Shown: positions 1,158 through 20,890 of the stretch, in pieces
Layout of the letters: each line of letters opens with the position of its first letter
How positions within the stretch are numbered: the stretch's first letter is position 1
Virus record (IMG/VR): IMGVR_UViG_3300037110_000216
Span: 1-21,326 of that record
Source: a virus
Strand: one strand, 5' to 3'
DNA length: 21,326 nt
Notes under the pieces: model-generated
Database searches by the model: none
What the model saw: the letters and a program-made list of their open reading frames with translations, nothing else
What the model was told of the DNA's origin: nothing
Made by a program: the position numbers and the translations under genes

Positions 1158-1630
1158 TCGCCGTCTTCCAGCCGCGAGCCGATGTAGCCCGCCTCTGTGA
1201 GCTTCTTGATCAGCGCGCGCTCGCGCTCGATCGTGACGGCCTGATATTCGAGCGCCTTGATGGCGTGCTCGTAGACATCGGGGGTATAGTCGGCGCGCGC
1301 ATCCCAGGCGGCCTTGCGAAATCCGGTCAAGCTGTCGAGCGCGGCGTACACTAGTGTCTCGGCCCGTTCGAGCAGCGCGTCGACATTGTCGGCTCCCGCG
1401 GTTTCACCGGCGTCGTATTCGGGATCCACGCTGAAATAAAGCAGGCGATCGACGAATTGCCGGAGATACTTTTCCGAGCCCTGGTACCACTTCTTTACGC
1501 ACTTGGCGAGCCACTTCAGGCCCATCGCCTTCAACTGCTGCACGTCGACCTGGTACTGGCCGGCCAGGTGCGCCATGACCTGGCAGGAGGTCTGCAGATT
1601 GTCGACGACGGTTTGGTTCGGAGCTTCCAT
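1154..1630 (-). CDS. Hypothetical phage head-region protein
   Basis: The 158-residue soluble, mostly helical protein (MEAPNQTVVDNLQ... to ...GSRLEDGD) is not recognised. The ATG at 1630 is chosen because AAAAGGAAAGG lies just upstream at ribosome-binding distance. A longer frame starting with GTG at 1660 exists only because the end of the inserted IS happens to be open; those extra codons are IS sequence. Before the insertions the gene began 16 nt after the stop of the FkbM-fusion gene and continued the head operon (portal, fusion gene, this gene, scaffold, coat). A packaging, head-completion or adaptor role is possible by position only. It now lies 1.76 kb downstream of its former neighbour, behind two elements with genes on the opposite strand. 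Confidence 0.7.
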   Translation of the reverse strand: MEAPNQTVVDNLQTSCQVMAHLAGQYQVDVQQLKAMGLKWLAKCVKKWYQGSEKYLRQFVDRLLYFSVDPEYDAGETAGADNVDALLERAETLVYAALDSLTGFRKAAWDARADYTPDVYEHAIKALEYQAVTIERERALIKKLTEAGYIGSRLEDGD

Positions 1631-1640
1631 GCTTGCCTTT

Positions 1641-1648
1641 CCTTTTTT
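1641..1648. repeat. Left target-site duplication of the IS (cctttttt)
   Basis: The 8 bp directly outside the left end of the IS are cctttttt, repeated exactly at 2566-2573 outside its right end. An 8-bp duplication is the size known for the IS1595 family. It also supplies part of the ribosome-binding region of gene 1154-1630. Confidence 0.9.
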
Positions 1649-1714
1649 GGGAACTATCACCTTGACTCCCTTCGCCTTTTCTACAACTATTTGCGGGAGT
1701 CATCTACTTTTCTC

Positions 1715-1743
1715 TTGTACTCAGTGAGGGAATCATGTACTAT
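1715..1743 (+). promoter_or_regulatory. Candidate IS promoter with overlapping palindrome
   Basis: TTGTAC (1715-1720) and TACTAT (1738-1743) are separated by 17 bp, a fair sigma-70-type promoter. An inverted repeat, catgta (1734-1739) and tacatg (1747-1752) with a 7-bp spacer, overlaps the -10 box and could be an operator. It would drive the two IS genes at 1765 and 1996. Confidence 0.5.
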
Positions 1744-1764
1744 ACATACATGGAGACCAACACA

Positions 1765-1995
1765 ATGACCACGAAGCAGACGACCAAGAGAGAGGTTAGA
1801 ATCGGCTATTGTCTGGATGACGCCACAAAGGTATTCTGGCGCGCCTACGCGATAGAAGGCAGCGAGAGAGTCGGCAGTATTATCGACCAAAACACCACTG
1901 TCGGCGAATTGGCCGCAAAAAGAAATTACGAGAGCTTACTGGCCTCGTTCCGGTCGGACAAGCGATTTGCCGTCAAAGACGAGGGACGGAGCTAG
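1765..1995 (+). CDS. Small unknown protein of the IS, upstream of the transposase
   Basis: The 76-residue product starts MTTKQTTKREVRIGYCLDD and is not recognised. The ATG at 1765 is preferred over ATGs at 1735 and 1750: GGAG lies 9 nt before it, and the earlier ATGs fall inside or next to the predicted -10 box. The stop codon directly abuts the ATG of the transposase at 1996, so the two are probably translated together. A palindrome over the promoter raises the idea that this protein represses the IS, but no clear helix-turn-helix is visible. It could equally be a passenger gene, which some IS1595-family elements carry. Confidence 0.55.
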   Translation: MTTKQTTKREVRIGYCLDDATKVFWRAYAIEGSERVGSIIDQNTTVGELAAKRNYESLLASFRSDKRFAVKDEGRS

Positions 1996-2508
1996 ATGTC
2001 TCCTTCGACAATCAGCACCTTCCAACTTTTCGAGATGTTCCCCGATGAAGACGCCGCGCGTAAGTACCTTGAGGATCGGCTCTGGACGAGCGGTCCGGTT
2101 TGTCCGACTTGCAAAGGTCAGGATCGTCTCACGACCCGCAAGAAGGGCTTTCATCGCTGCAACGCCTGCCAACTTGATTTCACGATCCGAACTGGGACGA
2201 TCTTCGGACGGTCACACATCCCATTGCATAAGTGGGTCCATGCGATGTATCTGCTGGTGACCGCGCGAAAGGGAATTTCTTCCCTTCAGCTCGCCAAGCA
2301 GATCGGCATCAGCCAGCACGCCGCATGGTTCATGCTTCAGCGGTTGCGGGAAGCCTGCAGCACGCCCGATAGCCAAGACAAGTTGAGAGGCGTTATCGAG
2401 ATTGACGAAGCATTCTTTGGCGGCAAAGAGGCCAACAAACACGAGCGTAAGAAACTCCACGCCGGACGAGTCGGCAAGCGCATTACCTACAAGCAGGTGA
2501 CCGCGTGA
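1996..2508 (+). pseudogene. IS1595-family transposase with most of the catalytic domain deleted
   Basis: The 170-residue frame is open but incomplete. A zinc ribbon is visible (CPTC at residues 36-39, CNAC at 55-58), then a helix-turn-helix-like segment (about 96-120, LQLAKQIGISQHAAWFMLQ). The ISXO2-type domain starts with its first catalytic Asp in IEIDEAFFGG (D137) and continues to KKLHAGR. Family members usually have around 300 residues, with further acidic residues downstream; here the protein jumps after about residue 158 to VGKRITYKQVTA and stops. That tail looks like a normal family C-terminus, which suggests an in-frame internal deletion rather than simple truncation. Without the second and third catalytic residues it should be unable to transpose DNA. 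The start has a GGACGGAG ribosome-binding site. Confidence 0.85.
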
Positions 2509-2565
2509 GGTACGATGCGCCCACGACCCGCGAGGAACGGCTGAAGAACGTCCCGGATAGTTCCC

Positions 2566-2573
2566 CCTTTTTT
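2566..2573. repeat. Right target-site duplication of the IS (cctttttt)
   Basis: This is an exact copy of 1641-1648, directly outside the right end of the IS. Its last six bases are also part of the target duplication of the neighbouring cassette (2568-2575), so both elements used the same poly-T site. Confidence 0.9.
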
Positions 2574-2575
2574 AG
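2568..2575. repeat. Left target-site duplication of the cassette (ttttttag)
   Basis: The 8 bp outside the left end of the 810-bp cassette are identical to 3386-3393 outside its right end. This proves insertion with an 8-bp staggered cut. Confidence 0.93.
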
Positions 2576-2600
2576 GGGAATTATATACATGACTACCTCG
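2576..2600 (+). repeat. Left 25-bp terminal inverted repeat of the cassette
   Basis: It is a perfect match to the reverse complement of 3361-3385. It contains an ATG at 2589 that opens a seven-codon frame (MTTSELK) whose TGA overlaps the ATG of the passenger gene. Confidence 0.97.
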
Positions 2601-2608
2601 GAGCTTAA

Positions 2609-3358
2609 ATGACGGAGGTTTGGAGTTGCGGCGGCGGAACCCAGTCGGGCGCGATGGCCACGCTCATCAGCCTCGGCAAATTGCCACGGCCAGATTTCGC
2701 GTTCATGACCGATACCGGGCGTGAGCGATCTAGCACTTGGCCGTTTGTGGACGGATTTATCCGGCCCGCGCTGGCCAAGGTCGATTTGGAGTTGACCGTC
2801 ATTCAAGCGTCGGAGTTTGCGCGACTTGATATTTATTGGAACGATACCGTTTTGCTCCCAGGCTACACCAACATCAGTGGCGACGTTGGGAAGCTTAGCC
2901 CTTTCTGTTCGGGGAAGTGGAAACGGGACGTTGCAGAGCGTTGGATGCGCTCCGTTGGGATTCAGACCGCTCGTAACTGGCTCGGAATTTCCCGCGACGA
3001 AGCGCGTAGGATTCGCGCGCAGCACCGGCCTTGGCTTGAACTTTGGTATCCGCTCATCTTCGAGGTTCCAATGCGCCGCGAAGAGTGCGAGCAGTTGATC
3101 CGGAATCAGGGGTGGACCGGGCATATCCCGCATTCAGCTTGCTTTATGTGCCCCAACTTGTCCGACGCCGAGTGGATCGACATGAAGATGAATTGGCCGG
3201 TGGACTTCGCGGCGGCCTGCGAACTGGAAGCGGAGACGCGGCTCAAAGATCCGCACTTCTTTTTACATCCGGCCTGCATTCCATTGGCGGATGTTGATTT
3301 TATGGCGCAAGCAACCATGTTTTCGGAACGCGGCTGCACTACGGGGTGCTTCACATGA
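2609..3358 (+). CDS. Phosphoadenosine phosphosulfate reductase-family protein (PP-loop ATPase)
   Basis: The 249-residue product opens with the pyrophosphate-binding loop SCGGGTQS (residues 6-13), a variant of the SGGxDS motif of adenine-nucleotide alpha-hydrolases. ADTG-like FMTDTGRE follows at 32-39. Later cysteines are C100 in PFCSGKWKRD, CxxC at 178-181 (SACFMC) and CxxxC... at 243-246 (CTTGC). Such spacing could hold an Fe-S cluster, as in DndC-like relatives, but this is inference. Phage members of the family are usually annotated as PAPS reductase or sulfotransferase; true sulfate assimilation is unlikely, and nucleic-acid modification or a defence-linked role is more plausible. The start has CGGAG 5 nt upstream. 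It is the sole passenger of a mobile cassette and runs against the phage operon. Confidence 0.8.
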   Translation: MTEVWSCGGGTQSGAMATLISLGKLPRPDFAFMTDTGRERSSTWPFVDGFIRPALAKVDLELTVIQASEFARLDIYWNDTVLLPGYTNISGDVGKLSPFCSGKWKRDVAERWMRSVGIQTARNWLGISRDEARRIRAQHRPWLELWYPLIFEVPMRREECEQLIRNQGWTGHIPHSACFMCPNLSDAEWIDMKMNWPVDFAAACELEAETRLKDPHFFLHPACIPLADVDFMAQATMFSERGCTTGCFT

Positions 3359-3360
3359 GA

Positions 3361-3385
3361 CGAGGTAGTCATGTATATAATTCCC
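3361..3385 (-). repeat. Right 25-bp terminal inverted repeat of the cassette
   Basis: It is the perfect inverted copy of 2576-2600. It begins 3 bp after the stop codon of the passenger gene, so the element holds almost nothing but the gene. Confidence 0.97.
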
Positions 3386-3393
3386 TTTTTTAG
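3386..3393. repeat. Right target-site duplication of the cassette (ttttttag)
   Basis: It is identical to 2568-2575. It contains the TAA stop codon of the minus-strand FkbM-fusion gene (3390-3392), so the insertion left that gene intact. Confidence 0.93.
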
Positions 3394-5597
3394 CGGCGCT
3401 CGGTCAGGCGCACGCGTTCGAGCGAGAAGCGGCGCGCGAAATCCTCGGGCATGAAGCGTTCCTCGGGGATGCAGACCAGCATCGCGCTCACGATCTTGCC
3501 GAACACGTTGATCCGGTTGCCGGCGAAGTTCGCCGGATTAAACAGCGGCGCGAAGTGCTGGTAGATCCGATAGCCGCGCGCGTGTACCCACGGAATCAGA
3601 TCGGGGTAGCACTCCGGCTTGTCGTACTCGACGTAGAGGAACGGCCGCGCCTTCGCGATGGTGCGCTCGGCACCTTCAAGTATTTCGAGTTCCTGGCCGT
3701 CGACGTCGACCTTGATCAGCGCCGGCGCGACGCCCAGCTCATCGATGTTTTGCTGCGCGACCAGTTCGGTATCGCCCGTCACCTTCCAGCCAGGCGCGCT
3801 CACCTTGTCGGTCTCGGCCGAGGGAACCTCCACCAGTTCTCGCGAGCGGCCGTTACCAAGAACGCGTCGGATGGCCGTGACGTTAGCGCGGTTCGCGGTG
3901 TTCCAATCGAGCAGCCGCGAATAGGCGAGCTGTGGCTCGAAGGCCAGTACCGCGCCGTCTGGTCCGACCATGTCGGAGATCGCCACCGTCAGTGCCCCGA
4001 TGTTCGCGCCCGCCTCGATCACGGTATCGCGCGGCTTCAGGAGCGCGCGGAGCAGCGCCGCCTCCGATTCCGAGTACTCGCCGTAGAGCGCAAGCGAGCG
4101 GCCGATATAGTGGTCGCTGCGGTGGAACGTCATCCGGCCGTACCGGGTGTTGGCGGCGACCAGCGGCGGCACCGGATCCGGTTTCGGCTCGGGTTCGGCC
4201 TGGTGGCGATCACGCGCGTTGGTAAGCGCGAGCCTCACCCAATCGATTACGGTCGCCCAGTCGCCCGATTCCTTTTGGCGGAATAGCTGCGCCGATCCGT
4301 AGAGCGGCGAGCTCATTCCGGTTTCGCCCCAGGCCCAGTAAGGTTTCGCCTGCAGCATCACCCACACCGGTTTCCCGAGCGCGCCGGCGAGATGCGCCGG
4401 CATGGTGCAGGTCGTGATCACGAGATCCAAGCGCTCGATCGCGGCCGCGAGATCCGCGACGTCGTGCGTGTGCTCGGCCAGGTTCGGGACCTTGGAGTCC
4501 GCGGCTTGCTCGGCCGGAACGCCCGCCTGCAGCAGATAGAAGTCGACGCCAGGTACGTCCAGAATCGGCGCGATCTGCGAGAAGTGCAGCGAGCGGCCGG
4601 CGTCCCGGGCATATTTCGGATTGCCGGCCCAGCAGACGCCCACCTTCAGCCGTCCGTTTTCCGGGACCCGCGCTTTCCAGCGGCCGTCGTCGGGTGCCTT
4701 CAAGTACCGCCCAAGGCTCGCGACGTCGTAGGTGCAGCAGTATTGCGGCAGCGAGGCCAGCTCTATCCAGTAATCGAAGCTGATCGGGTCCGCTTCGGCG
4801 TTGGATGTGATTACCCGGTCCGCCATTCTTGCGTCAAACAGCGTGGCCATGTCGCAGCACTTCGCAAAGAGTACGACCTTCGCGACATTAAACTGCGGAT
4901 GCCACAGGCAGCGCGAGAACATGATCTGGTCGCCCAGACCCTGGTCGGCCACCACCAGAATTGTCTTACCGTCCAGCGGCTCGCCCTTCCACTCGGGCAG
5001 CTCGTCGAGCTTGGCCGCGAGATCCAGGCGCGCCGGCCGGTGTTCGTAATCCCGCCAGCCGTTCTCGAAGTCGCCGCGCGCGAGTTCAATCTCCGATCGC
5101 GCGAAGAGCAGCTCGTGGCATTTCGGGTCGATGATCAGCGCCGCTTCGATGGTTTCGAGCGCGTCGTCGTGCCGGTCCAGCCGCAGTTCAATGGCGGTCA
5201 TCTGGATGAACGCCGGAATAAAGCAGCGATCCAGTTCCAAGGCCTGGTGGCAGAGAGCTAGTGCCTCGTCGGTCTCGCCCAACTCCGTGGCCGCATGCGC
5301 CGCGTTCACGCAGAAGGCCGCGCGCGGCTCGGCGGCAAGGGCGAGACGAAAGGCATTGTAAGCCTCTCGCCAGCGCTTCCGTTCCAGGTGTATCCGGCCG
5401 AGCGCATTCCAGGCGCGGGCATTCTCGGGTTCGAGGTCGAGCGCCCAGCGGTAGCAGCGCTCCGCGTTGTCGTCCTGGGGCTTTTTCGAGGCAACCAGCA
5501 CCAAGAAGTCGGAGATCTCGCCCGCGCGCCGGTAGTCGGGCATCTGCAAACGTGCGCTCGAAAGTCCGGCGCGAAGCGGTTCGATGATGGTCGACAC
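3390..5597 (-). CDS. TPR + glycosyltransferase-like + FkbM methyltransferase fusion
   Basis: The product has 735 residues in three parts. Residues about 45-185 are tetratricopeptide-like helices (ERCYRWALDLEPENARAWN...). Residues about 205-460 resemble the ADP-heptose-type (GT9-like) domain often fused to TPRs: GDQIMFSR near 222-229, VCWAGNPK near 320-327, and AHLAGALGKPVWV near 400-412, where family members usually have DT before the AHL. Residues about 485-700 are an FkbM methyltransferase with the SAM loop VIEAGANIG (525-533) and IKVDVDGQELEILEGAE (627-643). The likely role is glycosylation and O-methylation of a glycan, either on the virion or on the host surface. The GTG start shares its G with the portal stop (TAGTG), so translation is coupled to portal. 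The open frame extends far upstream inside the portal gene, but that part is a shadow. Its place between portal and scaffold is unusual. Confidence 0.85.
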   Translation of the reverse strand: MSTIIEPLRAGLSSARLQMPDYRRAGEISDFLVLVASKKPQDDNAERCYRWALDLEPENARAWNALGRIHLERKRWREAYNAFRLALAAEPRAAFCVNAAHAATELGETDEALALCHQALELDRCFIPAFIQMTAIELRLDRHDDALETIEAALIIDPKCHELLFARSEIELARGDFENGWRDYEHRPARLDLAAKLDELPEWKGEPLDGKTILVVADQGLGDQIMFSRCLWHPQFNVAKVVLFAKCCDMATLFDARMADRVITSNAEADPISFDYWIELASLPQYCCTYDVASLGRYLKAPDDGRWKARVPENGRLKVGVCWAGNPKYARDAGRSLHFSQIAPILDVPGVDFYLLQAGVPAEQAADSKVPNLAEHTHDVADLAAAIERLDLVITTCTMPAHLAGALGKPVWVMLQAKPYWAWGETGMSSPLYGSAQLFRQKESGDWATVIDWVRLALTNARDRHQAEPEPKPDPVPPLVAANTRYGRMTFHRSDHYIGRSLALYGEYSESEAALLRALLKPRDTVIEAGANIGALTVAISDMVGPDGAVLAFEPQLAYSRLLDWNTANRANVTAIRRVLGNGRSRELVEVPSAETDKVSAPGWKVTGDTELVAQQNIDELGVAPALIKVDVDGQELEILEGAERTIAKARPFLYVEYDKPECYPDLIPWVHARGYRIYQHFAPLFNPANFAGNRINVFGKIVSAMLVCIPEERFMPEDFARRFSLERVRLTERR

Positions 5598-20192: not shown

Positions 20193-20654
20193 TTGCGCTA
20201 CTTTGAAGTCCTCGTCGATATCGTAAAGCGGCAGCTCCCCTGGCGAATTACCCGGCTGCGGGAGCAGCACGGCCTGAGCCAGCAGAAACTAGCGACCGCC
20301 ACCGGACTATCGCCCGCGACGATCAGCCTGCTCGAACGCGGCCGGTTCCAGGGGTTACGATTCCAGACGGTTCTCACCTTAGCCGGGATCTTCGAGGTGT
20401 CGCTCGACTACATGGCGGGCGTCGATCACGCGGGGCTGGTACGCGCTATCTCGATCCGCCAGGTGCCCTGCGCCGAGTGTGGGAAACTCGAGGGCCATTC
20501 GGTGGCGACCTGCGCGCTCGAAATGTTCGAGCGCGGCCGAAGCCACGCTTACATCGCGGGGCGCCACGAGCTCACCGTGGCTACCGTCGAGTTCATGCTG
20601 AGGGAGGAGATCCGGGTGCTGCGGGAGCGGAGGCGCGGCGGTCCACGTATATAA
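20193..20654 (+). CDS. XRE-family helix-turn-helix regulator
   Basis: The 153-residue protein has a Cro/CI-type DNA-binding domain at about residues 17-70 (ITRLREQHGLSQQKLATAT, then GLSPATISLLERGRF). The C-terminal part has a CAEC pair (about residue 93) and a second helical segment (TVATVEFMLREEIRVL) that could also be a helix-turn-helix. The start is a TTG with AAGGG 4 nt upstream; no in-frame ATG precedes the DNA-binding domain. Its place opposite a sigma gene suggests it represses the early switch. The stop codon lies inside the GGGAATTATATACGTGG-type repeat at 20643-20659. Confidence 0.8.
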   Translation: MRYFEVLVDIVKRQLPWRITRLREQHGLSQQKLATATGLSPATISLLERGRFQGLRFQTVLTLAGIFEVSLDYMAGVDHAGLVRAISIRQVPCAECGKLEGHSVATCALEMFERGRSHAYIAGRHELTVATVEFMLREEIRVLRERRRGGPRI

Positions 20655-20659
20655 TTCCC
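20643..20659 (-). repeat. Copy of the cassette-end motif (GGGAATTATATACGTGG)
   Basis: Read on the minus strand, 17 bp match the inverted copy at 20773-20789 exactly, and the first 13 bases plus TG match the ends of the cassette at 2576-3385. It contains the stop codon of the XRE gene and abuts the stop of gene 20660-20890. Confidence 0.9.
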
Positions 20660-20890
20660 TTAACTTGTGGGTTCCACGTCCGCGAGCCGTTTATCTAGCG
20701 GGCGCAGGCGCTCGTCGGTATCGATGACCCAGCCGAGCGCGATGAGGGCGCCGACGTTCAACCAGTAAATTGGGGAATTATATACGTGGGCATAGTGCCT
20801 CACGATGCGCGCCTTCCGCTCGGCTTCGATTTCGGCGAGCGTGCGGCCGGTGCGCTGGTCCATCGCGCGCTGATCGATCGAGTCGCTCAT
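20660..20890 (-). CDS. Small single-span membrane protein
   Basis: The 76-residue protein has a charged N-terminal helix (LAEIEAERKARIVRHYA) and one membrane span (YWLNVGALIALGWVI, about 43-57), then a charged tail. The ATG overlaps the upstream stop (ATGA). Codons for HVYNSP lie in a copy of the cassette-end motif, and the stop TAA directly adjoins the second copy. It is therefore possible that the last 37 residues come from a rearrangement; the reading frame through the membrane span nevertheless looks normal. Confidence 0.6.
   Translation of the reverse strand: MSDSIDQRAMDQRTGRTLAEIEAERKARIVRHYAHVYNSPIYWLNVGALIALGWVIDTDERLRPLDKRLADVEPTS
20773..20789 (+). repeat. Second copy of the cassette-end motif, inverted
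   Basis: This is a perfect inverted partner of 20643-20659, with 113 bp between them. It lies inside the coding region of gene 20660-20890 and is strongly AT-rich compared with its surroundings. Confidence 0.9.

Follow-up and report, generated by a model that had tools for sequence, protein, structure and literature searches.

The 810-bp unit at positions 2576-3385 (+) of a tailed-phage contig is very probably a non-autonomous IS1595-type transposon, presumably mobilised in trans, that belongs to a phage-enriched subfamily with exchangeable passengers and a putative cargo of modification genes. The contig is an IMG/VR virus record of 21,326 bp, analysed here over its full length (the window), and it carries terminase, portal, scaffold and methyltransferase genes. 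A preliminary description had reported perfect 25-bp inverted repeats, an 8-bp duplication (TTTTTTAG), a single PAPS-reductase-family gene and no transposase, and each of these details proved correct. Its proposal that a single gene with transposon boundaries moves as a minimal cassette is supported by the presence elsewhere of the same 22-bp ends, with exact duplications, around different single passengers. The IS1595 type of the ends, the adjoining element with its defective transposase and the family of passengers were absent from that description and are reported here.

Structure of the cassette

The arms of the cassette (2576-2600 and 3361-3385) are 100% complementary over 25 nt. Their outer 22 bp form a conserved core, GGGAATTATATACATGACTACC, which occupies 2576-2597 (+) at the left end and 3364-3385 (-) at the right end and which matches the consensus of 150 family ends. 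The two copies of the target duplication TTTTTTAG lie at 2568-2575 and 3386-3393, and the right copy contains the TAA stop of the adjoining minus-strand FkbM-domain gene. No extra copy of the 25-mer was found in the window with up to three mismatches, and none is expected by chance. A blind scan for GGG-starting inverted ends with identical 8-bp flanks detected exactly two elements in the window, 2576-3385 and 1649-2565, whereas simulated sequences gave a mean of 0.03 elements per window.

Elements of the IS1595/ISXO2-like type have 8-bp duplications, 5'-GG ends and, in autonomous members, a zinc-ribbon and DDE_Tnp_IS1595 transposase (PMC8101967). The cassette carries TTTTTTAG twice and has 5'-GG inverted ends, and the ends of a set of 75 elements start with GGG(A); it differs from these elements in having no transposase. 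None of the ORFs within 2576-3385 encodes such an enzyme, the unit is 92% coding, and no trace of a transposase is present between the ends and the gene. Because an internal zinc-ribbon and IS1595-type DDE transposase gene is lacking, the cassette is a non-autonomous derivative and not an insertion sequence.

Two end-like 17-mers, GGGAATTATATACGTGG, occur elsewhere in the window at 20643-20659 (-) and 20773-20789 (+), 114 bp apart and facing outward from each other, without a duplication; the first of them encloses the stop codon of an XRE regulator ORF (20193-20654). A search for an ordinary promoter consensus in window positions 1500-3500 found none.

A second element in the same T-run

The second element found by the blind scan (1649-2565, +, 917 bp) is older, has the ends GGGAACTATCACCTTGACTCCC and GGGAACTATCCGGG, and is flanked by an exact 8-bp duplication, CCTTTTTT, at 1641-1648 and 2566-2573; the right copy overlaps the left duplication of the cassette. 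It encodes an 86-aa ORF (1735-1995, +) that has no family match and is likely a passenger or accessory gene, followed by an IS1595-family transposase of 170 aa (1996-2508, +). The latter matches NF033547 at 91.5 bits over profile positions 1-95 of 215, matches the zinc ribbon PF12760, and is 71% identical to the full-length transposase of locus L022 over its first ~160 residues, after which it jumps to the natural C-terminus VGKRxTY. Residues ~163-295 of the full protein are missing, and with them the catalytic-domain residues D206, N239 and E242. This internally deleted gene is the sole transposase in the 21-kb record, and it was rejected as a helper for the cassette because its catalytic core is deleted.

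The two elements are sequential insertions into the same T-run between two minus-strand phage genes. The phage sequence before insertion would have read ...CTTTCCTTTTTTAGCGGCG... in the interval that separates the stop of the FkbM-domain gene from the start of the following minus-strand gene. Insertion of the transposase element, duplicating CCTTTTTT, would have come first, followed by that of the PAPS cassette, which adjoined it and duplicated TTTTTTAG so as to overlap the first duplication.

A family of elements with common ends

The preliminary description had considered that its reading would fail if no other locus carried the inverted repeats, and this is clearly not the case, as many viral contigs have the 22-bp ends. 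The exact 22-bp end was found in 12 other viral stretches, and looser end patterns recovered 33, 26 and at least 120 loci in viral sequences. Exact 8-bp duplications flank 35 of 64 inward-facing end pairs, as against 0 after an 8-bp shift of the flank, and a repeat with an independent end pattern gave exact duplications at 38 of 61 pairs, again with 0 in the shifted control. A separate route was led by the transposase and covered 80 viral loci with homologues 58-100% identical, around which ends were sought with no template beyond GG. Blind end finding around 73 homologous transposases yielded 50 single solutions with exact duplications, nearly all of them with the GGGANTTATATA-type end.

After removal of duplicates, the catalogue holds at least 104 distinct elements with exact 8-bp duplications, a count that depends on the end patterns scanned and that is drawn, beyond isolate phages, from metagenomic fragments. 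Among the 104, 54 have a near-complete transposase, 10 have a partial one and 4 are shorter than 230 bp and comprise little more than ends; the other 36, about a third, are transposase-free and mostly single-gene. Three elements of 46-52 bp are hardly more than a pair of abutting ends, again flanked by exact 8-bp duplications (L011:1669-1714, L205:270-317 and L218:6235-6286).

Across 150 family ends the consensus is sharp for 22 bp and conservation stops abruptly at position 22-23. The target duplications are 80% A/T, compared with 42% A/T in the contigs. When the longest ORF across joined insertion sites was taken as a measure of bias to intergenic insertion, it was somewhat shorter than in controls, a weak difference in sequences with GC-rich shadow ORFs. 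The motif TATAAT reads outward from 116 of the 150 ends, for example at window positions 2576-2588 and 3373-3385, so the cassettes may drive expression of adjacent phage genes. This motif, together with the occurrence of the end-like 17-mers at 20643-20659 and 20773-20789 without a duplication, could be taken as a sign of an ordinary phage PAPS gene whose flanks resemble transposon ends by chance or as phage regulatory repeats. That explanation is scarcely credible and is already contradicted by the dozens of ends that have exact 8-bp duplications where shifted controls have none, by the linkage of the ends to IS1595 transposases and by the simulated expectation of 0.03 per window.

The same catalogue bears on whether the cassette is itself mobile. 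It might instead be the decayed remainder of an autonomous IS1595 transposon with a PAPS passenger, the transposase having been lost after insertion. Elements that combine a transposase with a PAPS-family passenger do exist (L022, L033, L081, L086, L088, L097 and L117), as do the 10 of 104 members with partial transposases. Yet the cassette has no remnant of a transposase within its 92% coding length, its two 25-bp ends match each other perfectly and its duplication is unaltered. In addition, the 36 transposase-free elements appear as compact units, a 24-member sample of them being tightly packed (median 87% coding, with a stop codon inside an end in 11), and the PAPS passengers of autonomous elements are only 24-26% identical to that of the window where they align along most of their length. 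Decay in place is unlikely.

Passengers and their origin

The commonest passenger family is phrog_424, with 9 members among 82 passenger ORFs scanned, followed by several DNA methyltransferase families; further passengers include ASCH, Dam, C5 methylase, DUF3307 and DUF6527 proteins. A profile trained exclusively on PAPS genes from six isolate phages and one plasmid, all lying outside elements, detected 7 PAPS-family genes across 144 kb of element sequence, of which the window contributes one, against 2 across 788 kb of sequence outside (p = 6e-5). At locus L039 a PAPS-like gene is bounded by family ends, with no duplication flanking them. Genes for TnpB, the IS605-type nuclease, are also bounded by the same IS1595-type ends (L021:1865-3074, L032:7525-8737, L054:9414-10725 and L036 near 381); the three such units with both ends visible depart from most other elements in lacking an 8-bp duplication. 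The 3' end of tnpB is no more than ~20 bp from the left end in L021, L032 and L036, and a guide RNA might therefore extend into the flanking sequence.

Genes related to the window passenger also occur outside cassettes. The preliminary description held that finding the same gene without these ends in related phages at this locus would count against its reading, and the outcome is mixed: four genes that are 63-73% identical to the window passenger (L003-L006) have no IS1595 ends around them, but they are not at this locus. The same four loci led to rejection of the idea that such ends invariably accompany phrog_424 genes. A further gene of the same subfamily (L167, 68%) lies 36 bp from a single family end and is evidently, with that end, a remnant. 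Because its 63-73% relatives are mostly without ends, the window gene appears to have been a free phage gene that a transposon took up; end-less relatives in other phages therefore point to capture of a free gene and are no argument against the cassette. The PAPS passengers diverge widely from one another, that of the window being closer to free genes than to the passengers of autonomous elements, and the simplest reading of the sequence comparisons is that the PAPS passengers represent independent captures of free phage genes. As a guess, genes may enter between the ends through recombination of the ends of neighbouring elements.

Putative function of the window passenger

The passenger (2609-3358, +) encodes a 249-aa PP-loop ATPase of the phage PAPS-reductase family that is tentatively SspD-like. 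It matches phrog_424 (PAPS reductase) at 1e-30 over residues 4-248, most of the protein. It has no Pfam match, including to PF01507 (PAPS reductase, CysH), a profile that is matched by three other passengers. All 7 PAPS-family passengers tested match the PADLOC SspD profile, strongly in L022 and L086, and in the case of the window protein weakly (3e-7, residues 4-217). The structure model of the protein is poor (pLDDT 54); a fold search with this low-confidence model gave no significant match, the weak ones being to tRNA thiolases and LarE, and a sequence search against solved structures gave nothing significant.

The window protein has a PP-loop region and cysteines in common with the SspD/DndC-type PP-loop ATPases of DNA phosphorothioation. 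It differs from these systems in its weak score and in standing alone, as no sspA/B/C or Dnd partner genes were seen among the ten window ORFs scanned of this fragmentary record. Our best guess is that the passenger would help to modify phage nucleic acid, for example against host restriction, in view of the relation of its PP-loop to SspD/DndC and PAPS reductase and of the methylases that make up the other passenger theme.

Transposases of the subfamily and their possible hosts

The phage transposases form one clade (100/99) with three genes from metagenome-assembled genomes (MAGs) of the candidate phylum FCPU426. The best plasmid matches of the L022 transposase share ~43% identity with it, its best isolate-phage match shares ~36%, and a close transposase homologue was found in 0 of 398 Pseudomonadota genomes. 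A contig of an FCPU426 MAG (L160; L157:1029-2584) has a same-clade transposase with matching ends and duplication, and no phage marker among five ORFs tested; this element is a hint to the hosts of these phages.

The FCPU426 clade members, and in particular the one on a contig whose five tested ORFs include no phage marker, are what would be expected if the units were elements of bacterial chromosomes that prophages had acquired by chance, and not a phage-adapted family, and two MAG contigs do carry the end. The distribution of the ends and the nature of the cargo make this account distinctly improbable: a 21-base end pattern gave 2 loci in genome_contigs (257 Gb), whereas 33 loci were recovered from viral_contigs with a very similar pattern; the Pseudomonadota genomes have no close transposase; the passengers are phage-type genes; and many element-bearing contigs have a terminase. 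A phage-enriched subfamily remains the preferred reading.

Ends that match those of the cassette are found with a transposase at two loci. A damaged transposase element in L016 has one end identical and one near-identical to those of the cassette, and in L018 a transposase frame truncated by the edge of the contig adjoins an identical end. At the level of sequence, these two loci show that probable matching transposase sources exist or existed. Many elements have, close to one end, a small ORF whose product terminates in a lysine/arginine-rich tail (like M..P.ELD.IADVVL.YRPKPKSKAAKRR); examples are L016, L012, L024 and L167, and a loose motif detects it in 52 of 70 elements over 1 kb. This product is possibly an accessory transposition protein.

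Mobility and a proposed mechanism

Two elements are found complete at more than one unrelated site, with a different duplication each time. The elements of L096 and L100 are 90% identical in nucleotide sequence, and those of L081 and L088, which carry a transposase and a PAPS-family gene, are 80% identical. Passengers are also exchanged: in L081, L084, L086, L097 and L121, for example, the transposases are 86-90% identical at the protein level, the interiors are unlike with unrelated passengers, and the last ~25-40 bp, at the right end, are alike. A second copy of the exact window cassette was not found. The preliminary description had suggested a search for empty sites lacking one copy of TTTTTTAG, and none was found: the terminase of the window phage yielded no relatives through which to locate one, and comparison of the joined flanks of all elements with all fetched loci returned mainly re-assemblies of the same phages.

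The following mechanism is proposed. A transposase supplied by an autonomous relative, in the same phage, a co-infecting phage or a prophage, would act in trans, bind the 22-bp ends, cut out the unit and join it at an A/T-rich site, leaving the 8-bp duplication. Passengers would be exchanged between the transposase block and one end of subfamily members, and loss of the transposase would leave single-gene cassettes like 2576-3385.

Relation to known elements

Mobile insertion cassettes were first named in the Bacillus cereus group, and the classic examples have IS231/IS4-family ends and reside in bacteria. The unit at 2576-3385 resembles them in having insertion-sequence ends around a passenger gene, no transposase and presumed mobilisation in trans; it differs in that its ends are of the IS1595 type and its setting is a phage.

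A second likeness is to MTnSag1 (tISSag10) and tISCpe8, IS1595-family elements of 1.7-2.0 kb with a lincosamide-resistance passenger (PMC5704250). In common with the present subfamily they have an IS1595-type transposase, 25-bp inverted ends, an 8-bp duplication, A/T-rich targets and one passenger. However, these elements occupy chromosomes or plasmids of Firmicutes, carry resistance genes and keep their transposase, whereas the elements described here are found in phages, carry phage accessory passengers and in many cases have no transposase.

Implications for gene exchange among phages

Recombination is the usual explanation for the movement of phage accessory genes. Phages have been described as rarely carrying transposons (DDE elements), and virulent phages as doing so very rarely (PMC8136500). 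No report of a phage-enriched IS1595 subfamily that spreads single accessory genes was found in open papers, which is weak evidence of absence. The cassette is real; IS1595 passenger elements and bacterial mobile insertion cassettes were already known, and it is the scale in phages that is unexpected.

The more than 100 similar units suggest that phages share accessory genes, especially those of the PAPS family and DNA methylases, as small transposable cassettes. A broader possibility, offered tentatively, is that phages have a modular cassette system of their own, in which an IS1595 subfamily would move single accessory genes in trans and swap passengers, giving a shared pool of anti-restriction and DNA-modification genes. 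The end sequence GGGANTTATATACNTGASTMC provides a simple handle with which to find unknown phage accessory genes by their packaging alone. Through the at least 104 IS1595 elements in viral contigs, accessory genes of the DNA methylase and PAPS/SspD-like kinds, among others, could pass between unrelated phages, a proposal concrete enough to be tested.
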